IMG/VR virus record: IMGVR_UViG_3300032308_000878
Location: 1-41,986 of that record
Direction: 5' to 3' (one strand)
DNA length: 41,986 bases
From: a virus
Shown: one piece after another, positions 5,815-20,898 of the stretch
Position numbering within the stretch: position 1 is the stretch's first letter
How the letters are laid out: every line of letters starts with the position of its first letter
Made by a program: the position numbers and the translations under genes
The notes under the pieces: generated by a model
Told to the model about the DNA's origin: nothing
What the model saw: only the letters and a program-made list of their open reading frames with translations
Database searches by the model: none

Positions 5815-6393
5815 ATGTACACAGACACGCAGATCATCAACATCGGCTTGTCCGGCATTGCGTCCTCTACGGTCCAGACTATTAGTCCGCCCCGCACGGC
5901 GATCGAGCGGTACTTTTCTTCCAACTACACTCACATCAAGCGAACCGAACTGGCCAAGCGCCGTTGGGTGTTTGCACGTGTGGCTGACTACAAACTTACT
6001 CTTGTGCAAACGCTTACGGACGTAGAGAAGCCGTACAAATACGCGATGCCGATAGACTGCTTAGTACCGATACGTATAAAGAGTACGGAGTGGGTGCAGC
6101 GCGGGCGCTTCATCTACAGCGAGAATCCCACGCTGGCCATTGAGTACACCAAGAACGCGAACGAAGACGAGTTCGATCCGCTGTTCGTTGATGTGCTGGC
6201 CTGTGCTCTGCGCCGGTTCTCGGCTGAGTATATCACTGGCTCGTCCAGTAAAAACCAAGAAGCTGACGCGAAATACCGCGATGCCGTTGACACAGCGGCC
6301 AAAGCTAATGCTTTCATTATCGGCACAGAAGAGATACAACAGGATGATGGGGAGTATAGCTGGCTCTCCGCTCGTGCAGGCCAGCTACCCTAA
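5815..6393 (+). CDS. Tail tubular protein A (T7 gp11-like adaptor)
   Basis: A 192-residue protein, almost the length of T7 gp11 (196). The N-terminal pattern (two helices around an IERYFSSNY segment, then LAKRRWVFARVADYKL), the P-rich middle and the helical C-terminal half (FVDVLACALRRFSAEYITGS) match the tail tubular A / gp11 adaptor family. Twelve copies form the adaptor ring between portal and nozzle. The next gene is its usual partner, tail tubular protein B. The Shine-Dalgarno is AAGGGGGA. Confidence 0.86.
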   Translation: MYTDTQIINIGLSGIASSTVQTISPPRTAIERYFSSNYTHIKRTELAKRRWVFARVADYKLTLVQTLTDVEKPYKYAMPIDCLVPIRIKSTEWVQRGRFIYSENPTLAIEYTKNANEDEFDPLFVDVLACALRRFSAEYITGSSSKNQEADAKYRDAVDTAAKANAFIIGTEEIQQDDGEYSWLSARAGQLP

Positions 6394-6405: not shown

Positions 6406-9174
6406 ATGGCTAAAGCGTCACCTATTATTCGGTCTTTCAACGGCGGCGAATGGTCGGCTCTCATGGAGGGCCGCACGGACATTGACCGCTATCCGTCAAG
6501 CGTTCGCAAGATGGAAGGTTATGTCGCCGCGCCGCAAGGCCCCGCGATTCCGCGCAGCGGTACGGCCTTCATGGGCAAGGTGTACGACGAGACTAAGAAG
6601 ACCGTTCTGATCCCCTTTGTGTTTTCTGAGACTGACTTCTTGCAGCTTGAGTTCTCGCCGGGGCGGCTGCGCTTCTTTACCGAGTTCGGCCTACTCACGC
6701 GTCAGCCTGAGTTCTGCACCATGGTCGCCCGGTCGCCGATCGTCGTTGAGCTGGACCCCGCATGGGGCGGCGTCGTCGGCGAAGAAGTTGTCATCAGCTT
6801 GCTTCCCGAGGCATCAAACCTCAATGGCACCACCGCGCGCATCACCGCAATCTCGGGCAATCAGTACACGCTCGACGCCACGTACTTACCGATACCCGAC
6901 CCGGCCAGTATGCAAGTGGCGCGTGTGTACCACGTGGACTCCCCCTACACGGAGGACCAGCTAGAAGAGATATGTGATCTACAGCGGTTCGACACCTTTT
7001 GGCTGTTGCACCCCACGGTCAAGCCTTACAAGTTAAAGCGGCTCGACACTTACGATTGGCGGTTCGAGGCCATCGTTTTTACCGACGGTCCTTACCTACC
7101 GCAAGTAGACACGACGACTAAATTGACGCTGAGCGCTACGGGTAAAGCCACGCCTAACATGACGAGCAACACAACGCCCTCTGGCGTTTGCTCGGGCAGC
7201 AGCAATGACGCGGGCAGCGATTACTATTTGGCGTTCGACAATCCAGCTTTGCCGAGCTATTGGCGCAGCAACACGAACCAGTCAGGCATAATCCAGTACC
7301 GCTCCACCGGCGCGCCATTCGTGGCCGACGGGTACTCGATCGCGCTTGGTGACTACAACGCCAACACCAGCTACACGAGCAAAGACCATGCGCCATCTAA
7401 CTTCACGTTTGAAGGCAGCAACGACGGAACTAACTGGACTATTCTTGATACCCAAAAAGATTATGTGCTTTACGACGGCATGAAGTCTGTCTTTTTCCCG
7501 CTCGATAACGCAGTGGCGTATGAGTACTATCGTTTGAACGTGACGGCGTGCACGCGCAACGGCACGGTGAACCCCACGATCCGCAGCCTGATTATCCGCT
7601 CTACCACTTCGGTCAACGTCACGATCACTGCGTCGTCCACGACCGACATCAACGGCGGCTTAGGGTTTTTGACTACCGACGAAGGCAGACTGATTCGCAT
7701 CCAAGGCAGCGATGCTGTGTGGCGATCCCTGCGCATCACGTCGCGCACGTCAGCTACCGAAGTGCAAGCCGTGCTGCTAGACGAGCCGTTTCCCGATCTT
7801 GCGCCGTCGTCGAAGTGGCGTCTCGGTGTTTGGAGCGACACGACCGGCTACCCCAACGCGGGCGTGTTTGGCCCCGAAGACCGCTTGTGGCTCGGCGGCT
7901 CGACCAAGTACCCCGACGCGCTGGCCGCGTCCATGCCCGAGTTCTACGATCGCTTTGCGCCCACGACCCCGGACGGCGAAGTGCTCGATACCAGCGGCAT
8001 ATTCGTGCAGCTCAACACACCTAAGCTCTCGCGTATCCGCTGGCTGGCCGTGGGCAAAGACGGCATCCTCGCTGGCACCGGCCTGACCGAAGCGCAAGTG
8101 TTGCCGCTCGAAGGGTCGGGCAAGAACGTGACGGCCAACTCGATACGCGTTAAGACGCCCACGCAACGCGGCAGCGCCAACGTGCGCGCGGTGTCGGTGG
8201 ACGGCCAGACATTGTTTGTGCAGCGCTCGGCCCGTACTCTGCGTGAGTTTGCGTACTCCTACGAGGCCGATAGCTTCAAAGCGCCGAGCATGTCGCAGCT
8301 CGCGAGCCACCTCGGTATAACCAAGTTCAAGAAGCTGGCCTACGCGGCGGAACCGTACAGTATCGTTTGGGTCCTGCGCGAAGACGGGCGCATTGTCGGA
8401 CTGACGTATAACCGCGACGAGAACGTGGTGGGCTGGCACCAGCACCCGCTCCCCGACCTCGGTAGCTCGGAAGCCTTTGTCGAAAGCATATCAGTTCTGC
8501 CCGGCACTGAGCGGCAGCAAGATGTGCTGTGGATGATTGTGCGTCGTACTGTCAACGGGCAAACGCGCCGCTTCGTGGAGAAGCTCACTCCGTTTTGGGA
8601 CTTCGGCATGGATCTCTCGGACGCGCATTATGTGGACTGTGCGCTCCGCTACAGCGGCGCTCCGGCGACCCGGCTGTACAACCTCACGCACGTCGAAGGC
8701 CGCGTCCTCTATGGGCTGGCGGACGGCGCGCCGATCGGACCTATCACCGTGGCCGACGGGTCTGTGCTTCTGCCATTCGCAGCATCGAACGTCATTCTTG
8801 GCTTTGGGTTTGATTCCCTCGTGACCACCGCGCGCTTAGAGAATGGCGCTGCGGACGGGACGGCCATTGGCAAAGTAAAGCGTATGCACAACGTGACTGT
8901 CCTCGTGTGGGATTCTTTCGGCGGCGACATCGGCGTTAAGAACCATGACACAGGCGTGATTGAGTACGAGCCGATGGAGTACTACTACAAGGACTACAGC
9001 ATCGAAGTAAATGACGGCGTGGTTCTGCAAACGGGCTTCACGAAGCCGATACCTCTGGCGGCAGGATACGAAGTGGACGGATGCCTGTACATACGACGCA
9101 GGAAAGAGACGCCACTACCGTGCAACGTGCTGGCATTGCTACCGCAGCTCGTGACACAGGACAACCCGAAATGA
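6406..9174 (+). CDS. Tail tubular protein B (T7 gp12-like nozzle) with a discoidin-like insertion
   Basis: A 922-residue protein, longer than T7 gp12 (794). The N-terminus SFNGGEWSALMEGRTDIDRYP, the core GPEDRLWLGGSTKYPDALAASMPEFYDRF, and the later TQRGSANVRAVSVDGQTLFVQRSARTLREF are typical of tail tubular B nozzle proteins. About residues 235-398 look like an inserted F5/8 type C (discoidin) beta-sandwich, with FTFEGSNDGTNWTILDT, AYEYYRLNVTA and a terminal PTIRSLIIRS. Such domains usually bind carbohydrate. The nozzle is a hexamer below the adaptor and holds the fibres. The gene overlaps the next by 4 bases (ATGA). Confidence 0.88.
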   Translation: MAKASPIIRSFNGGEWSALMEGRTDIDRYPSSVRKMEGYVAAPQGPAIPRSGTAFMGKVYDETKKTVLIPFVFSETDFLQLEFSPGRLRFFTEFGLLTRQPEFCTMVARSPIVVELDPAWGGVVGEEVVISLLPEASNLNGTTARITAISGNQYTLDATYLPIPDPASMQVARVYHVDSPYTEDQLEEICDLQRFDTFWLLHPTVKPYKLKRLDTYDWRFEAIVFTDGPYLPQVDTTTKLTLSATGKATPNMTSNTTPSGVCSGSSNDAGSDYYLAFDNPALPSYWRSNTNQSGIIQYRSTGAPFVADGYSIALGDYNANTSYTSKDHAPSNFTFEGSNDGTNWTILDTQKDYVLYDGMKSVFFPLDNAVAYEYYRLNVTACTRNGTVNPTIRSLIIRSTTSVNVTITASSTTDINGGLGFLTTDEGRLIRIQGSDAVWRSLRITSRTSATEVQAVLLDEPFPDLAPSSKWRLGVWSDTTGYPNAGVFGPEDRLWLGGSTKYPDALAASMPEFYDRFAPTTPDGEVLDTSGIFVQLNTPKLSRIRWLAVGKDGILAGTGLTEAQVLPLEGSGKNVTANSIRVKTPTQRGSANVRAVSVDGQTLFVQRSARTLREFAYSYEADSFKAPSMSQLASHLGITKFKKLAYAAEPYSIVWVLREDGRIVGLTYNRDENVVGWHQHPLPDLGSSEAFVESISVLPGTERQQDVLWMIVRRTVNGQTRRFVEKLTPFWDFGMDLSDAHYVDCALRYSGAPATRLYNLTHVEGRVLYGLADGAPIGPITVADGSVLLPFAASNVILGFGFDSLVTTARLENGAADGTAIGKVKRMHNVTVLVWDSFGGDIGVKNHDTGVIEYEPMEYYYKDYSIEVNDGVVLQTGFTKPIPLAAGYEVDGCLYIRRRKETPLPCNVLALLPQLVTQDNPK

Positions 9175-9602
9175 TCGAGTACGTTAAGCTCCGGCAGGAA
9201 CACATAGCGCTGGTGGCGGCGCAAGAGGGCGACAAGCAAACTCAGCTTGCATACCTTGACCCCGCTCTGCGCACGGCGTTGGAAAACGAGTTCTCTTTCA
9301 CGGCGTTTTGCGGCAATAAATGCTTGGGCGCTGCGGGTATTATCCGCGTCACAAACCGCCGGGCGATGGCGTGGGCGATGCTTTCGCGAGAGGCAGGCCC
9401 GCACATGATGGCCCTGACGCGCAAGGTTAAACGCGCGCTAGAGCTGCACCCTTGCCCTCGCGTCGAGATGACGGTATTATGCGACTTCGAGCCGGGGCAT
9501 CGGTGGGCTAGATTGCTCGGTATGGATTTGGAGGCCCCCCGCATGAGGGGCAGTAGCGCGAGTGGGCTTGACGAAGCTCTCTACGCGCGCGTTAGGGGGT
9601 AG
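9171..9602 (+). CDS. T7 gp13-like protein with acetyltransferase-type fold
   Basis: A 143-residue protein starting at the ATG that overlaps the tail tubular B stop (ATGA). An in-frame ATG at 9081 would add 30 residues overlapping the nozzle gene in another frame, so it is rejected. Size, place and sequence pattern (early ALENEFSFTAFCGNKCLGAAGII, then WAMLSREAGPHMMALTRKVKRAL, then the RWARLLGMD loop) match the T7 gp13 family, which has a GNAT-like fold and is needed for assembly of the internal core. Acetyl-CoA binding has not been shown from sequence here. It begins the internal virion gene block. Confidence 0.75.
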   Translation: MIEYVKLRQEHIALVAAQEGDKQTQLAYLDPALRTALENEFSFTAFCGNKCLGAAGIIRVTNRRAMAWAMLSREAGPHMMALTRKVKRALELHPCPRVEMTVLCDFEPGHRWARLLGMDLEAPRMRGSSASGLDEALYARVRG

Positions 9603-13277: not shown

Positions 13278-15251
13278 ATGTCTTTCCTAGAAGCTGACCA
13301 AGATAACCGATACCTCAGCCCCGAGAGCGTGGCCACCGGGCCTAAGATTGGGCCGTTGCGTGGCGCGCAGTACGCGTTTGAGGCACAAGATCGCGCTATG
13401 TCCTCGCGTGGTGTCAACGAATATCTCTACGACGAAGTAGGCACGCAGCGCGAAAAGCTGGTGAAGCTCGGTGAGGTTGCCCCGGACTGGCCAATTCTCA
13501 AACCTCCTACGCTGATGGACGCTACTTCGTTCCGTCCCTTTGAGGACGTGGCCCGCTTCTACACGGACGGCGGCACCGAAGAAGAAGCCAATGCGCTACG
13601 TCAATACGACGAACGCATTGAAGCCCTGCGCCAGAAGTACCCTGACGCGCAACTACGCACGACGTATGAACTGTGGCAATCGGTACGAGGCGCAGCACGT
13701 GATGCCGTCGATCGCGACGCGGCGGCGCGCAAGGGCGTCACTGGCACTGTTGGGTCGTTCGCGGGCGCAATAGCTTCGGGCGTCAACCCTGTCACCAACC
13801 CGATGCTTGCGGCCACGCTCCCGATCGGCGGCTTCGGGCGCACAGCGGCTATGCGTATCGCGACGGAAGCGGGGTCCCAAGGCGCGATCGAGCTGGCCAA
13901 CCAGTTGACCGGCGCGCAAGAGAACATGCGCCTGTTGGGGCTGGAAACGGGCGCAGCACAGATCGCATCTCAGGTAGGATTAGCCGCAGCGGGCGGAGCG
14001 GCCATTCGTGGCGTAGGCGAGGGCGCGGTGGCGCTCGGCAACCGCTGGTTCCGCAACACGCCTGACGACCCTGCGCCCCCTGTGCCGCCGCGCCCCGAGC
14101 CTACCGTGTCACGCCGACCGATGACTAAGGCAGAGCAAGACTTGGCCGACGTGATGTCTGGCAAGCGCAGCTTTGACGAAGTGTACGCCCGGCAGGAAGG
14201 GTCGCCCGTAGGCCCCACGCGCCACGATGCGCGCGGCATGGCAGAAGACCTGTCGCATTTGGAAGCTCGGCTGCAAGCATGGGACGGCGACGCGCCTATG
14301 GCGGTTCGTGCGCCCACGCCCGAAGAGATACTGGCGCGCTCAGAGCCTAGCATTAATTACGCCGCCATGACGCCCGACGCTCGTGCAGCGTTAGGGCGCG
14401 CATCGCCTGACGATCTAGCCCGCACGATCGACCCTGACGTGTTCCGCGTCTACGACAAGCTCGGCGCTGAGATGGAGCAAGTGCGGCAGTACATCGAGAT
14501 GGCTAAGCCTAACGACGCCAGCCGGGCGCTGGCCGTGCAGGACATCGAGGTCAAGATCGCCGAGGTCGAAACGCGGTTGCGCGCAATCACGCCGCGCGAT
14601 CCGGCCAAGCTAAAGCGCACCCTAGAAGCAGAGCGTAAGAGCCTAGTAGAAGAGCGCGATCGCGTGGCCCACGCGCACGATACGGCTGACAGCCCCACGA
14701 TCAAGGCGTACCGAGACGAGCTGGCCCGGCTCGACTACAAGCGCCGCGACCTTGCACCCGCTGTGTCGCGTGCCTACGCGCGGGCGCGCAAGAAGTGGGC
14801 GGCTGGCGACGCCGACCTGCGCGCCGTGCAGGACATGCTGCGCCGTGGCGAGAGCAAACTTCCAGACCAAGCGCCCGGTATGCTCGACGCGTTCGACGCG
14901 TTTGAGCGCACAGCGGCTGATGACATACCGGCTTTGCGGCAGTCTGCATCTGTGCGCGACCGGCTACCCGAGAACGCAGGCGTGGCCGACATTGCATCGG
15001 CAGTCATGAAGCACAACGACGAAGTATTGACTGACGGTTTGCAGTCGTTCCGTGATAGTCTGCCTAAAGTACTTGCCGATCAGACTGACGCCATCGTTCC
15101 CGGCACTGACATACGGTTGCCACTTGAGACAAAGATGATGGTGCCGAACGAAGACGGCGTTGGTATGCGCGAGATGTCGTTGCGCCAAATGCTACAAGAA
15201 CAGATTGATGCTGACGAAGACCTGAAAGCGGTGACAACATGCCGAATCTAA
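13278..15251 (+). CDS. Internal virion protein, coiled-coil rich
   Basis: A 657-residue protein between the SLT protein and the last large ejection protein. About residues 155-250 are rich in Gly and Ala with hydrophobic stretches (GVTGTVGSFAGAIASG; VGLAAAGGAAIRG), like membrane-active segments. A proline-rich linker follows (about 268-282), then long charged helices (about 385-530). The C-terminus overlaps the next gene by 13 bases in another frame. Together with the next gene it may correspond to a split T7 gp16-type protein. That is inference from order, size and composition; no enzymatic motif was seen. Confidence 0.75.
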   Translation: MSFLEADQDNRYLSPESVATGPKIGPLRGAQYAFEAQDRAMSSRGVNEYLYDEVGTQREKLVKLGEVAPDWPILKPPTLMDATSFRPFEDVARFYTDGGTEEEANALRQYDERIEALRQKYPDAQLRTTYELWQSVRGAARDAVDRDAAARKGVTGTVGSFAGAIASGVNPVTNPMLAATLPIGGFGRTAAMRIATEAGSQGAIELANQLTGAQENMRLLGLETGAAQIASQVGLAAAGGAAIRGVGEGAVALGNRWFRNTPDDPAPPVPPRPEPTVSRRPMTKAEQDLADVMSGKRSFDEVYARQEGSPVGPTRHDARGMAEDLSHLEARLQAWDGDAPMAVRAPTPEEILARSEPSINYAAMTPDARAALGRASPDDLARTIDPDVFRVYDKLGAEMEQVRQYIEMAKPNDASRALAVQDIEVKIAEVETRLRAITPRDPAKLKRTLEAERKSLVEERDRVAHAHDTADSPTIKAYRDELARLDYKRRDLAPAVSRAYARARKKWAAGDADLRAVQDMLRRGESKLPDQAPGMLDAFDAFERTAADDIPALRQSASVRDRLPENAGVADIASAVMKHNDEVLTDGLQSFRDSLPKVLADQTDAIVPGTDIRLPLETKMMVPNEDGVGMREMSLRQMLQEQIDADEDLKAVTTCRI

Positions 15252-17785
15252 TTGACTTTGAAACATGCGTGCGTGCGAACCTGAAAGACCGGCGCTTCGG
15301 TAAAGAGCGCGGCGATGCTATCGTCAAAGAGTTTCGCAGCCACTTTGCGTACCATAAGTCAACGGGTCTTAACGACAGCGTTGCTGGCCTCAATGCACTC
15401 AACGACTTGAACCAGCGCCTGACGCGCGACGCGGCTGAGCGCATGAAGCGCACAGCGGCCATGATGACGAAGCAGGCGCAGCTCAGCGCGCATCTCGATA
15501 AGGGTAAGACGGTTGACCTCAAGATCCTTGACGCCGGTAAGCCCGTTGACCAGCAGGCCACCAGCCGGGGCGAAGCTGTTGCCCGCGCAGCCGTAGCGCT
15601 TATCGGAAACAATCCACGGTTCGGCGGTACGGACTTCAACACCGCGTCGCAAAACATATTCGGGGAGTTTCACAAGTTCATGAGCAACGTCTTGCCTGAG
15701 ATGGGCAAGGGCGCGTGGGGCCGCCAGAAGGGCAAGGTTCACGAGCCTAACGTGATCGAAGAAGCGTTCGGCAAAAGCACCGGCGACGCACTGGCCGCTG
15801 ACTTCTGGCAGGCATGGAATAAGCTATCAGACTACATGGTCGATCGGTTTAATGCGGCTGGCGGCAGCATGAATAAGCTCAAGAACTATCTGCCGCAACC
15901 ACCGCCTAGCTTGGCCAAAATGGTGCAGAACGAAGACGCATGGCGCGCGAGCCGTATGGACAGGTGGGACTGGACAAAGATGCGCTACCCTGACGGTACG
16001 CTTATTCCGCCGGAGCGTCGCGCCGAAACGATTGACGCTGTGTGGAAGTCGATGACACTGGACGGCGCGAACAAGATCGACCCGACGGCGTTTCGCGGGC
16101 AAGGCCGCGCCATAGGTAATGCGCTCGAACAGCATCGCTTTGTGCATTACAAGGACGCAGAGTCATGGCTGGCCGACCTCAAAGAGTTTAGCGACTCGGG
16201 TATCACGGACGTGTTCTTCTCGCACATCGAGGACATGACGCATAAGGTCGCTATGATCGACACGTTCGGTCCTTCGCCCGAAGCGATGTTTGCGAACATA
16301 AGGTCTATGGTTCGGGCTAAAGCATCCGAATACGGAGCCGTTGAGCTTGGCCGCGCCGAGGCCATCTTGAAGAATAAGTTTGACCCCATGGTGGACTTCA
16401 TAACGCGGTCGAACCCGGTGGACTCCGAGAGTCGCGGGGCCGCCGCCATTTACGCCGTGGCCAACACGCTAACCGCAGCGCAACTCGGGAGCGCCGCGAT
16501 CCCCGCCGTGCTCGGTGATCATGCTACCCTGCACATGGTCGCTAAGTTTAACGGCAGCAACATCGGCGGCGCGATGCGTATGTATCTTGATGGCTTGTTG
16601 GCTAACCCCACAAAGCTGCGCCAAGAACTAGCAGCCGCAGGGTTCGTAGTAGACGACACTGTTCGCACGATGTACGCGGCCACGCGCTTCAATGGCTTCG
16701 CCACGATGGGGCCGATGATAACGCGCCACTTCCCGGACAAGGTATTGCGCGCATCAGGCATGGCCGCTCACACCAACGTGTTGCGTGGTGTCGCGCAGAA
16801 GCTGATGCTGATCGACTTTGCGCGCAATGCTGACGTTCCGTTCGATAAGCTACCCAACCGCGATATGATGGCGCGCCACGGCGTCACGAGTGCTGAATGG
16901 GACGAGTTCCGCAAAGCGGTCAAGCCGAGTTCGCCGCGCGAAGGCGTATCGTGGATGCGCCCGATTGACTTGCTCGACACTGAGCTTCCGAACAAGCAAG
17001 CCCTGTTCAAGAAGTTTCAGGGACTTGTGCACATCGAGTCACGCAGCATGGTACTGGACAGCTCGGTCGAGGCAGCGGTAGGGCTTAAAGGCACGACGCG
17101 TCCTGACACGCTGGCCGGTGCGATACTGCACAGCTTTGCCATGTACAAGAACTTTGCGGTTGCGTTCTGGCTGCGCTATGGACGGCTCGGCATGTCAGGC
17201 AAGAGCGCTCAAGGGCGGCTCGGTTTCTATGCCGCACTCGGTACGTCGATGACATTGATGGGCGCGCTCGGGATTCAGATCAAGGAGCTTCGCGACTTTA
17301 AGGACCCGGTGCCGATGGACACCCTCGCCTTTTGGGGGCGTGCGATGCTGGCCGGTGGCGCGCTCAGTATATGGGGCGACTTCCTGACTTCGGGCGTTAA
17401 CCGCATGGGCGGCGGCCCCGTCGAGACAGCCGCTGGCCCGATCGCGGGGTTCGCAGGCGACACGGCGCAGCTTGTCTTAGGCGACCTGTTTAACTGGGTT
17501 GACAGCCCGGCTGGTTTGAGCCAAGGGCAATCCGCTACGTTCCTTGCTAAAGCCGCGCAGTACACCAAGCGCTACACGCCCGGCACAAACCTTTGGTGGG
17601 CCAAGGGTTTGCTCGAAAAGGGCGTGTGGGAGAACGTCGAAAACTTGGCCGACCCGGACATTTACGAACGCCGTTTACGCCGAGAGCAAAATCAGCTAAA
17701 GAATGGAGGTAATAGGTTCTTCGTGCGGCCCGGCGAATCGGTCTTTGAAGGACGCTTACCTGAGTATCAAGGGAGTCCGCCATGA
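15239..17785 (+). CDS. Large internal virion / DNA ejection protein
   Basis: An 848-residue protein closing the internal virion block before the tail fibre. It is mainly helical. The C-terminal third has hydrophobic stretches that could insert in membrane (AALGTSMTLMGALGIQI and AFWGRAMLAGGALSIWG). Near residues 165-240 there is a KLSDYMVDRFNAAGG segment, followed by NYLPQPP. The position and features fit a T7 gp16-like ejection protein without its transglycosylase part, which here lies two genes upstream. Its start overlaps the previous gene by 13 bases and its stop overlaps the fibre start by 4. A structural role is likely; details are inferred. Confidence 0.75.
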   Translation: MPNLIDFETCVRANLKDRRFGKERGDAIVKEFRSHFAYHKSTGLNDSVAGLNALNDLNQRLTRDAAERMKRTAAMMTKQAQLSAHLDKGKTVDLKILDAGKPVDQQATSRGEAVARAAVALIGNNPRFGGTDFNTASQNIFGEFHKFMSNVLPEMGKGAWGRQKGKVHEPNVIEEAFGKSTGDALAADFWQAWNKLSDYMVDRFNAAGGSMNKLKNYLPQPPPSLAKMVQNEDAWRASRMDRWDWTKMRYPDGTLIPPERRAETIDAVWKSMTLDGANKIDPTAFRGQGRAIGNALEQHRFVHYKDAESWLADLKEFSDSGITDVFFSHIEDMTHKVAMIDTFGPSPEAMFANIRSMVRAKASEYGAVELGRAEAILKNKFDPMVDFITRSNPVDSESRGAAAIYAVANTLTAAQLGSAAIPAVLGDHATLHMVAKFNGSNIGGAMRMYLDGLLANPTKLRQELAAAGFVVDDTVRTMYAATRFNGFATMGPMITRHFPDKVLRASGMAAHTNVLRGVAQKLMLIDFARNADVPFDKLPNRDMMARHGVTSAEWDEFRKAVKPSSPREGVSWMRPIDLLDTELPNKQALFKKFQGLVHIESRSMVLDSSVEAAVGLKGTTRPDTLAGAILHSFAMYKNFAVAFWLRYGRLGMSGKSAQGRLGFYAALGTSMTLMGALGIQIKELRDFKDPVPMDTLAFWGRAMLAGGALSIWGDFLTSGVNRMGGGPVETAAGPIAGFAGDTAQLVLGDLFNWVDSPAGLSQGQSATFLAKAAQYTKRYTPGTNLWWAKGLLEKGVWENVENLADPDIYERRLRREQNQLKNGGNRFFVRPGESVFEGRLPEYQGSPP

Positions 17786-20700
17786 GCGTAGCTACAGAAA
17801 AAACGTCAGAGACTTTCTTGAACGTAGTAGCTGGTACGCCAGTCAATCTCGCGTTTCCTTTGTACAACGCCAGCGAAGTTAAGGTCGTGTACGGCAAGGC
17901 CAGCCTTACGGCTACGCCTAACTCTGACTACACTGTGCAGTTGTCGTCCCCTAACTTCGATCAGTTTACCGTCACCCCGCTCGCTCCGCTTATCGCTAAG
18001 ATAAACGCGCTAATCGTTCTCGACGCCACCGAGACAAACTACATCACGGTTCGCCGCGACATGCCTGTGCTGACCAGCGCCGACGCCAACACGGTGCGGT
18101 CTAACGACTTCATGGGTGTTGAGATGTCGCGCTTCACCATGATGCTGCAAGAGCTTAGGGAGAAGTTCAAGCGTTCGGTCGTGCGCCCCGAGCGCGTGCC
18201 GGGCGCTGACGCTACGCAGATCACGATCGACGATCCTGTCGCCGACAACGTGCTGATCTACAGCAGCGACGCCAAGCGCATCATCCCCGCTACCGTGGCC
18301 TCACTGCCGGGCAGTCTCGATACAGTCATCACGTCGCCCCAAGATGGCGACCAGCTCAAGTATTCCGCGTCATCGAGCGCGTGGATCAACACTGCGGCTC
18401 CTGCTACCGGCGAGATCATCAAGTTCTCCGAGCTTGGCATTTCGGCCAGCAAGACCGCCGCGCAGAACACCACTCTGCTTAACAACGCGCTTACCGCCGT
18501 TGCGTCTAAGGGCGCGCGTTTCGTAGGCGATGTGGCCGAGCAGCCGCGTATCAATCGCATCGCCCGTACTGGCATCAGCAAGTTGAGCTTTGAGGGCGTG
18601 CCGGGCTTCCGCCTGATCGGCGATAGTTTTAGCGGGACTCAGGACCGTGGCTTGCTGCAATTCTCCGGCGTGACGACCGCGACGACCACCATGTCCGCGT
18701 CCGCCGCGAAGGGCGCTACGTCCATCCAAGTCACTAACCCCGACGCGCTTACCGTCGGCAAGCCTTTTCGTATCACGTCGAGCGGCGAGAAGTTCAACGG
18801 TCTTGATTCCGTCGGCGGATACCCGAACGTCAACAAGCAAGAGCTGCGCTGGTGCGACGCCAAGTCCGGCTCAACAATCACGCTCGACAGCCCGCTTGAG
18901 GACAGCTACGACGCTTCGACTTACACAGTCACGATCACACCGATCGACCACATCACTGACATCATATTTGGCCACGGCTTCAATTCGGAGAACGACCAGC
19001 CTGACGACCCCGCGCTTACTAATGGCATCGGGCCGGTTGGCTTCTACGTCGAGTACTGCTTGCGTACTTCGTTCTTCGGGCATGATGCACGCCAGTGGCA
19101 GAACGCGGCGGCTAAAGCGCGGCTGTGTTGGGACGTGAGCTTTGGCGTCGGCGGGTTGTTGACCGGTGTGGGGCGCGACGCGGGCGTGCCGGACGATTGC
19201 TACTATGGCTGGAACGCGCATGGTTCTGTCGGCGTCATTTGGGACGGTATTCACTTCAAACATGGCCGCCGCCCGGCTGACAGTGGTGTCGGCGAAATTA
19301 TGCGCCGCTTTAAACAGTGCAACATTTACGCCGACGGCATGAACGGCTCTTTGGGTGGAACGCACCACGCGCAGCACGGCGAAATCTACGCCATTAGCGG
19401 ACGTAATATCGTTAGCGCGTTGGCCACCGCTATCGCTGGACGCGCGCGTGATATTCGTATCCATAGCTGTAAGGACCTTCCCGGCTGCATCCAGCTAGGC
19501 ACCAGTCTGACAGCGGGTATCGACGTTAAGAACGCAACAGTCGGCAACGTAGAGATCGAAGATGTTTCGTTCGACTTGCCTAATGGCGGTAGCTACATTC
19601 GGTCCGACGTGAACTATGAGTCCTTGACCATTACGGGCGTCAAGGGCCGAGGGGCCACGACTACGCCGATCACGCTTCGCGGCAACAAGCGCGCTAAGAC
19701 TATCATCGACGGCAACGACATCGACGCTAACGGTCAAGCGTTTGGTGTCGATTTCCAAAACAATAGCTCCGCGCTCACCGAGGACGTGGGCATCAGCATC
19801 GGCGTCAATCGGTTCCGCAACGTGTCCGACTCCCTCGTCCGCATCGCCTCCGCGACAGGCGCGAACAAGACGGACAAAGTATTGGTTATGCCGCAGATCT
19901 CCGATCGGACAGAGAAGAACCAATTGCTTCTCAGCGGCACAAACTTCGGCCCGAGCGTCGTAAACCTTCAGGGGCTTTTCACGCCCGGCGCGACCAGCGG
20001 CATTAAGAACCGTATTCACAACGGCGACGGATCGGTCAACAAGCGCAATGGCTTGGGGGCCGACGTGACGAACGCCACCGCGTTCACGTGCGATCGTTGG
20101 CGCTTGACCGCAGGGTCGCAGACCTTGCGCTCAGGCATTATAACTACGTCGCTCGACTACGGGATGCGGCAGGCCATGACGGTGCAGACGCGCCTCGTGC
20201 CTGCGGGCGCTCCGGGCGCAGCGGTCGATGCTCGCTACGAACAGGTTATCGAAGGCATAGACTGGGAAGACTTGCTGTGGGGTACTGCAAACGCCAAGCC
20301 CATTACGCTGCGCATAGGGTATCGCGTATCTGTCACAGGTACGTACTACTTCGCAATTCAGAACGCAGCTAAAGACCGCAGCTATGTGTTCTCGCTTACG
20401 CTACAAGCTACGACGTGGACGTACATCGAAGTGACTATACCGGGCGACACGGCAGGCACGTGGCCTACCGGCGCTAACGCCGCCGCGCGCTTTGTGATGG
20501 ATATGGGCTGCGGGTCGAACTTTGAAACGACGCCGGGCGCGTGGCAGGCGGGCAACTTCACGTGCGCGGCTGGCGGCCAGAAGCTGACAAACCAAGCACA
20601 GTTCAACCTTATCCGTTTCACCGAGCCTGTGCTTGTTGAAGGCGTCACGGCTATGGGTATTGAGCGCCACCCCCGCGTAATTGAAGAAGCGATTTGTGCG

Positions 20701-20898
20701 CGCTACTACAACACGTTATCTGTCAATGTGCCTGCATCCCCCGCTGTGGCCAACATTCCTATCGACATGCGCGCTGTGCCTGTAGTCGCCGGGGGCGGCT
20801 CGGGCTTTGCGAGCGCAGGCACAACGGCTACTATGTTACAAGTCACGCAGACCTCGCAGGCCGTGCAGACACTAACCCTAGACGCTGACTTGACGTAA
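17782..20898 (+). CDS. Tail fibre / tailspike protein with T7-type N-terminus
   Basis: A 1,038-residue protein. The first ~130 residues match the T7 gp17 virion-anchoring domain (FLNVVAGTPVNLAFPLYNASEVKVVYG, later YITVRRDMPVLT and FMGVEMSRFTMMLQELREKF). The middle (about 210-720) looks like a right-handed beta-helix of the pectate-lyase type, with repeated short strands around ITLRGNKRAKTIIDGNDIDANG, so a depolymerase activity is possible. The C-terminus (about 740-1035) is a beta-rich receptor-binding region ending with EEAICARYYNTLS, a motif common in phage fibres. It attaches to the nozzle/adaptor. The stop codon sits inside the next promoter candidate. Confidence 0.88.
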   Translation: MSVATEKTSETFLNVVAGTPVNLAFPLYNASEVKVVYGKASLTATPNSDYTVQLSSPNFDQFTVTPLAPLIAKINALIVLDATETNYITVRRDMPVLTSADANTVRSNDFMGVEMSRFTMMLQELREKFKRSVVRPERVPGADATQITIDDPVADNVLIYSSDAKRIIPATVASLPGSLDTVITSPQDGDQLKYSASSSAWINTAAPATGEIIKFSELGISASKTAAQNTTLLNNALTAVASKGARFVGDVAEQPRINRIARTGISKLSFEGVPGFRLIGDSFSGTQDRGLLQFSGVTTATTTMSASAAKGATSIQVTNPDALTVGKPFRITSSGEKFNGLDSVGGYPNVNKQELRWCDAKSGSTITLDSPLEDSYDASTYTVTITPIDHITDIIFGHGFNSENDQPDDPALTNGIGPVGFYVEYCLRTSFFGHDARQWQNAAAKARLCWDVSFGVGGLLTGVGRDAGVPDDCYYGWNAHGSVGVIWDGIHFKHGRRPADSGVGEIMRRFKQCNIYADGMNGSLGGTHHAQHGEIYAISGRNIVSALATAIAGRARDIRIHSCKDLPGCIQLGTSLTAGIDVKNATVGNVEIEDVSFDLPNGGSYIRSDVNYESLTITGVKGRGATTTPITLRGNKRAKTIIDGNDIDANGQAFGVDFQNNSSALTEDVGISIGVNRFRNVSDSLVRIASATGANKTDKVLVMPQISDRTEKNQLLLSGTNFGPSVVNLQGLFTPGATSGIKNRIHNGDGSVNKRNGLGADVTNATAFTCDRWRLTAGSQTLRSGIITTSLDYGMRQAMTVQTRLVPAGAPGAAVDARYEQVIEGIDWEDLLWGTANAKPITLRIGYRVSVTGTYYFAIQNAAKDRSYVFSLTLQATTWTYIEVTIPGDTAGTWPTGANAAARFVMDMGCGSNFETTPGAWQAGNFTCAAGGQKLTNQAQFNLIRFTEPVLVEGVTAMGIERHPRVIEEAICARYYNTLSVNVPASPAVANIPIDMRAVPVVAGGGSGFASAGTTATMLQVTQTSQAVQTLTLDADLT

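Follow-up and report, generated by a model that had tools for sequence, protein, structure and literature searches.

A discoidin domain inserted in a phage tail nozzle protein as a candidate receptor at the tail tip

The tail nozzle is a core protein of the DNA conduit, and the question raised by this locus is what a module from a family of binding domains would be doing inside it. The window, by which we mean the whole analysed stretch of a virus record (41,986 bases) from an uncultured short-tailed phage, encodes at 6406-9174 on the + strand a protein of 922 aa whose residues 1-919 match PHROG 376 (phrog_376, tail protein) with an E-value of 2.5e-149. This protein is a nozzle of the T7 gp12 (tail tubular protein B) type, because its predicted structure matches solved nozzles. 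The full-length model (pLDDT 87.6, pTM 0.83, from an alignment of 39 sequences) contains their platform, propeller and tip fold, and Foldseek relates it to the nozzles of Carin-1 (8ck1, E 1.4e-45) and LME-1 (9efk) as well as to several T7 gp12 chains (E about 1e-17 to 1e-19, probability 1.00). The full-length fold is shared with all three, and the sequence profile of the nozzle with two of them, as hmmsearch finds 8ck1 at 3e-164 and also LME-1; T7 gp12 has no similarity to the window nozzle that sequence and profile searches could detect.

The gene order is also that of T7, Carin-1 and LME-1. An adaptor gene of the T7 gp11 type (5815-6393, +; phrog_394, E 1.8e-28) adjoins the nozzle gene directly upstream, and downstream a phrog_4177 protein is followed by genes for a gp14-like internal virion protein and a transglycosylase. 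The phrog_4177 gene (9171-9602, 143 aa) has its ATG start at 9171, where start and nozzle stop overlap as ATGA, and in many relatives, pelagiphages included, its position is held by a gene annotated as a GNAT acetyltransferase. Between the transglycosylase and a phrog_684 virion protein lies a 657-aa protein (13278-15251) with no PHROG match and no convincing Pfam match. A candidate for the tailspike or fibre, recognised by eye from its position and sequence, has its own gene (17782-20898, +; 1038 aa); its N-terminus resembles T7 gp17, and none of the Pfam, PHROG or NCBIfam models recognises it.

From the sequence alone, the original prediction had placed an F5/8 type C domain within the nozzle at 7111-7600, separate from the fibre. 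The peptides that it quoted are found at that place in the 6406-9174 frame on the + strand, and the spike candidate is indeed a separate gene; the domain itself begins about ten residues further 3', at residues ~246-400 (7141-7605, +), as delimited by profiles, model and alignment. These residues form a discoidin (F5/8C) β-sandwich, and the agreement is beyond chance. With the window segment alone, the Pfam model F5_F8_type_C gives a weak match (E 0.0015-0.0018, 19.1 bits against a gathering score of 28.2) which is too weak to decide the matter, while phmmer finds the GH92 protein 7nsn at 2.7e-11; matches of phmmer to the Notch partner RBPJ are short (E ~0.01) and were dismissed as chance. The fold assignment is right because the Pfam matches of the relatives, a family profile, an AlphaFold2 model and Foldseek all agree on it. 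The family profile was built from 78 aligned copies, that of the window together with 77 others from phages in IMG/VR. Of these, 62 match PF00754 individually (E<=0.01; best 5.4e-15), while the window copy by itself scores below the Pfam cut-off. Searched against the PDB, the profile finds 7nsn (2e-41), neuropilin-1 (b1, 7e-7), a chitosanase CBM32 (3e-6) and factor VIII C2 (1e-4).

The AlphaFold2 model of the domain (pLDDT 94.1, pTM 0.89) is a jelly-roll β-sandwich of the discoidin type, as had been predicted. Foldseek matches it in the PDB with a probability of 1.00 to 7nsn, CBM32 modules, APC10, muskelin and galactose oxidase domain 1, and its neighbours also include HECTD3; the bacterial ones are mostly sugar-binding CBM32 modules, and among viral models the best match is gp365 of Bacillus phage G. 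The domain has the β-sandwich and the sequence profile of the discoidin superfamily (PF00754, CBM32 and the discoidin-like domains of GH92 7nsn) in common, but differs from it in its place inside a phage nozzle, in the Pfam score of the window copy and in loops specific to its clade (YVLYD and RNG).

As judged from alignments, the domain is a clean insertion into the nozzle. Of 13 reference nozzles, 12 lack the whole segment (~152 aa), for example those of HTVC010P, BcepC6B and BPP-1, and the thirteenth (L018) has an unrelated longer stretch at the site; the metagenomic relatives L002 and L003 carry it. In relatives free of the insert, usually about 36-51 residues (a linker of ~45) join the same flanking strands. 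The nozzles of pelagiphage HTVC010P and of BPP-1 and BcepC6B are similar in sequence to that of the window, and many have a GNAT-type gene downstream, but the insertion site is empty in HTVC010P and BcepC6B and holds a short FN3-looking stretch in BPP-1, where the window has the discoidin domain. No discoidin domain is seen in T7 gp12, Carin-1 or LME-1 either, Carin-1 having a different, unmatched stretch at the site. The possibility of an intein or intron at 7141-7605 was dismissed, because the reading frame runs through without a break and what is inserted makes up a whole discoidin fold. The insert had been held to account for the extra length over T7 gp12; it contributes, but a second insert described below does so too, and T7 gp12 cannot be detected by sequence. 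In the open literature that was searched, no description of a discoidin domain in a nozzle was found. F5/8C domains are common in other phage proteins.

In a tree of 72 nozzles, computed with the inserted regions left out, the clade to which the window belongs has 21 members (support 1.0). The domain is present in 20 of the 21; L112 is without it, and in L114 and L116 it is shortened at the front. All sister clades are without the domain though their tip barrel is the same. Far outside the clade, L149 and L151 have a discoidin-like domain at the same site (PF00754 E 1.2e-5 in L151), apparently a separate gain, given their distance from the clade and the absence of its specific motifs. Within the clade, the insert of the window is 32-61% identical to those of other members, and because this identity follows that of the backbone, the domain appears to have been inherited vertically and not to be hypervariable; accelerated evolution of the insert was not seen. 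Its composition is uninformative as to a recent foreign acquisition (GC 0.548 against 0.600 in the rest of the gene, with similar GC3). Clade members stem from many different samples. The search for a host in genomes gave only three loci, and the one with the insert, L176, is a contig in a MAG of Candidatus Sabulitectum and may be of phage origin, binned with that genome.

In the full-length model, the strands of residues 190-222 form a blade-like unit which is followed by the discoidin domain, a small barrel (404-474) and further strands, with the insertion site between propeller strands 217-222 and the barrel. This conserved small β-barrel (residues 401-470; 7606-7815, +), a putative nozzle-tip domain delimited from the model and the relatives, is also conserved in alignments of insert-free relatives. 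In T7 the propeller opens at the blade-3 loop leading to the nozzle tip, which protrudes toward the outer membrane (PMC6702177). In the SU10 nozzle, too, additional β-sandwich domains form the tail tip and interrupt the propeller between its second and third blades, but these are four Ig-like domains and not discoidin (PMC9509320). By analogy, the small barrel would be the counterpart of the tip domains of T7 and SU10 (PMC6702177, PMC9509320). We infer from the strand topology that the discoidin domain joins the nozzle where the distal tip begins, since its site falls in the excursion that forms this tip in T7.

The distribution of conserved residues points to one end of the sandwich. When 14 nozzle copies were compared with 64 other phage copies, 16 positions were specific to the clade, i.e. 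conserved in >=85% of the nozzle set and rare elsewhere, and by strand topology 13 of these lie in loops at a single end. This corresponds to 13 of the 50 loop positions of that end against 3 of 103 elsewhere (Fisher p 3.6e-5, a descriptive value, as the ends were defined after the conservation had been seen and the sequences are related); at the opposite end none of 26 positions is specific. The residues at the putative ligand end are Q292 in the loop before strand 2 (7279-7281, +), the N318-D327 loop with the pattern NxxxxYxxxD (7357-7386, +), the Y353-D357 loop, YVLYD/E (7462-7476, +), and R384-N385-G386 before the last strand (7555-7563, +). L176, which was outside the defining set, keeps Q292, N318, Y323, D327, YVLY and RNG, with D357 changed to E. 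In the family profile, neuropilin b1 aligns with the family across these loops, which puts its known ligand pocket in three of them. The two termini of the domain should lie at the opposite end of the sandwich, so that the conserved loops would point away from the attachment.

Ligand binding at the tail tip is likely on these grounds, and contact of the domain with the cell surface is plausible because the insertion falls within the excursion to the tip and the conserved residues occupy that end of the fold which canonically takes up the ligand. The discoidin fold binds non-sugar partners in APC10, muskelin, HECTD3 and neuropilin, and sugar binding can for this reason not be read from the fold; a sugar is a reasonable guess for the putative ligand. 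In alignments aimed at the sugar sites of known CBM32s only 7nsn was a genuine match, and none of the putative binding residues could be paired with those of a solved complex with a sugar.

The best explanation is a receptor mounted on the tip, for which the chances of being right and wrong are about evenly balanced. The nozzle would be a hexamer in which each subunit contributes one discoidin domain, six in all, at the point where its chain presumably leaves the β-propeller to build the distal tip, and the conserved loops, away from the attachment point, would form a ligand pocket. Once the tailspike has found the cell, the six pockets would bind an envelope component common to many cells, most probably a glycan such as the LPS core or another conserved surface sugar, and this binding could keep the tip on the outer membrane and assist the opening of the nozzle for DNA ejection. 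By analogy, precedents exist for nozzle proteins in host recognition: in a Vibrio phage, nozzle and adaptor proteins bind a host receptor (PMC7241545), and in an Acinetobacter phage with a capsule receptor one mutation in the nozzle was enough to broaden the range of hosts (PMC10904470). Carbohydrate-binding modules have also been added to virion structural proteins other than the receptor-binding protein in lactococcal 936 phages, where those in neck and tail proteins bind host cells, but these are siphophages of Gram-positive hosts with the modules in neck passage and major tail proteins, not in a nozzle (PMC6669499). The tail tip itself, besides the spike, may bind the cell surface, and the locus shows that modules from a family of binding domains can enter a core protein of the DNA conduit as well as fibres and spikes. 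A discoidin domain on six tip arms, with its conserved putative pocket, would be a concrete and deletable candidate for the sensor by which the nozzle opens after fibre binding.

Against a receptor at the tip speaks the slow, backbone-like evolution of the domain, unlike that of a strain-specific receptor binder. The same tracking of the nozzle backbone, together with conserved loops common to a clade from many different samples, would be expected from the main rival, an architectural contact inside the tail in which the loops touch the tailspike or an adjacent subunit of the nozzle and so keep the closed tip stable. A parallel exists in SU10, where the Ig-like nozzle domains contact neighbouring subunits and a short fibre and stabilise the tail (PMC9509320). 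This role, possible and on balance rather unlikely, does not easily explain why L112 and all sister clades, whose tip barrel is the same, cleanly lack the domain, nor does it fit the position of the conserved residues at the end where related domains have their ligand pocket. The absence from L112 and the shortened copies of L114 and L116 also weigh against the tip receptor, as the domain is then not essential in every relative.

The use of the discoidin fold for protein and lipid binding is a further point against a tip receptor for glycans, and leads to an unlikely alternative in which a host-surface protein or lipid is bound instead of a sugar. Peptides, proteins or lipids are the ligands of the structural or profile neighbours neuropilin, APC10, muskelin and factor VIII C2, and a nozzle that binds a host membrane protein is already described (PMC7241545), but the bacterial structural neighbours, mostly sugar-binding CBM32 modules, speak against this alternative. 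Very improbable is a passive passenger, a mobile phage domain held in a tolerant loop with no selected function. The site often is empty or takes other domains, such as the FCCH-like stretch of L129, L131, L137 and L138, as this would predict; retention in 20 of 21 clade members with invariant residues specific to the clade, at only 32-61% identity between window and members, nevertheless requires selection on the domain.

The second insert of the nozzle is FCCH-like and spans residues ~98-176 (~78 aa; 6697-6933, +), as delimited by alignment and profile. It is missing from the shortest relatives in the alignment; profile A4 (positions 82-171) matches the FCCH domain of the ubiquitin-activating enzyme E1 (2lzj) with an E-value of 0.004, and PF16190 is above its cut-off in the relatives L149 and L129. 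This insert is the fastest-changing part of the nozzle, with 13-43% identity to the window within the clade. In the nozzles of short-tailed phages, the junction of propeller and tip barrel may be a general exchange site at which discoidin, FCCH-like and FN3-looking β-domains are swapped in and out. The tail tip would then have a second-stage receptor of its own, open to change and able to trigger opening without the fibre. This extension is less likely than not.

Several further observations concern individual loci. In L129 (4001-6520) the insert with the PF16190 match lies at or near the discoidin site, and in L112 (4001-6571), where the discoidin domain is missing, an FCCH-like-looking stretch is found inside the tip barrel. 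The nozzle gene of L118 (3998-6677) is split over three frames, probably by sequencing error or decay. In BPP-1-type nozzles (L011, 6001-8046, which is BPP-1 bbp13, as well as L019 and L021), an FN3-looking stretch is seen by eye at the same junction and reads DYTYRYVVTALDAEG...ASRYNVYK.
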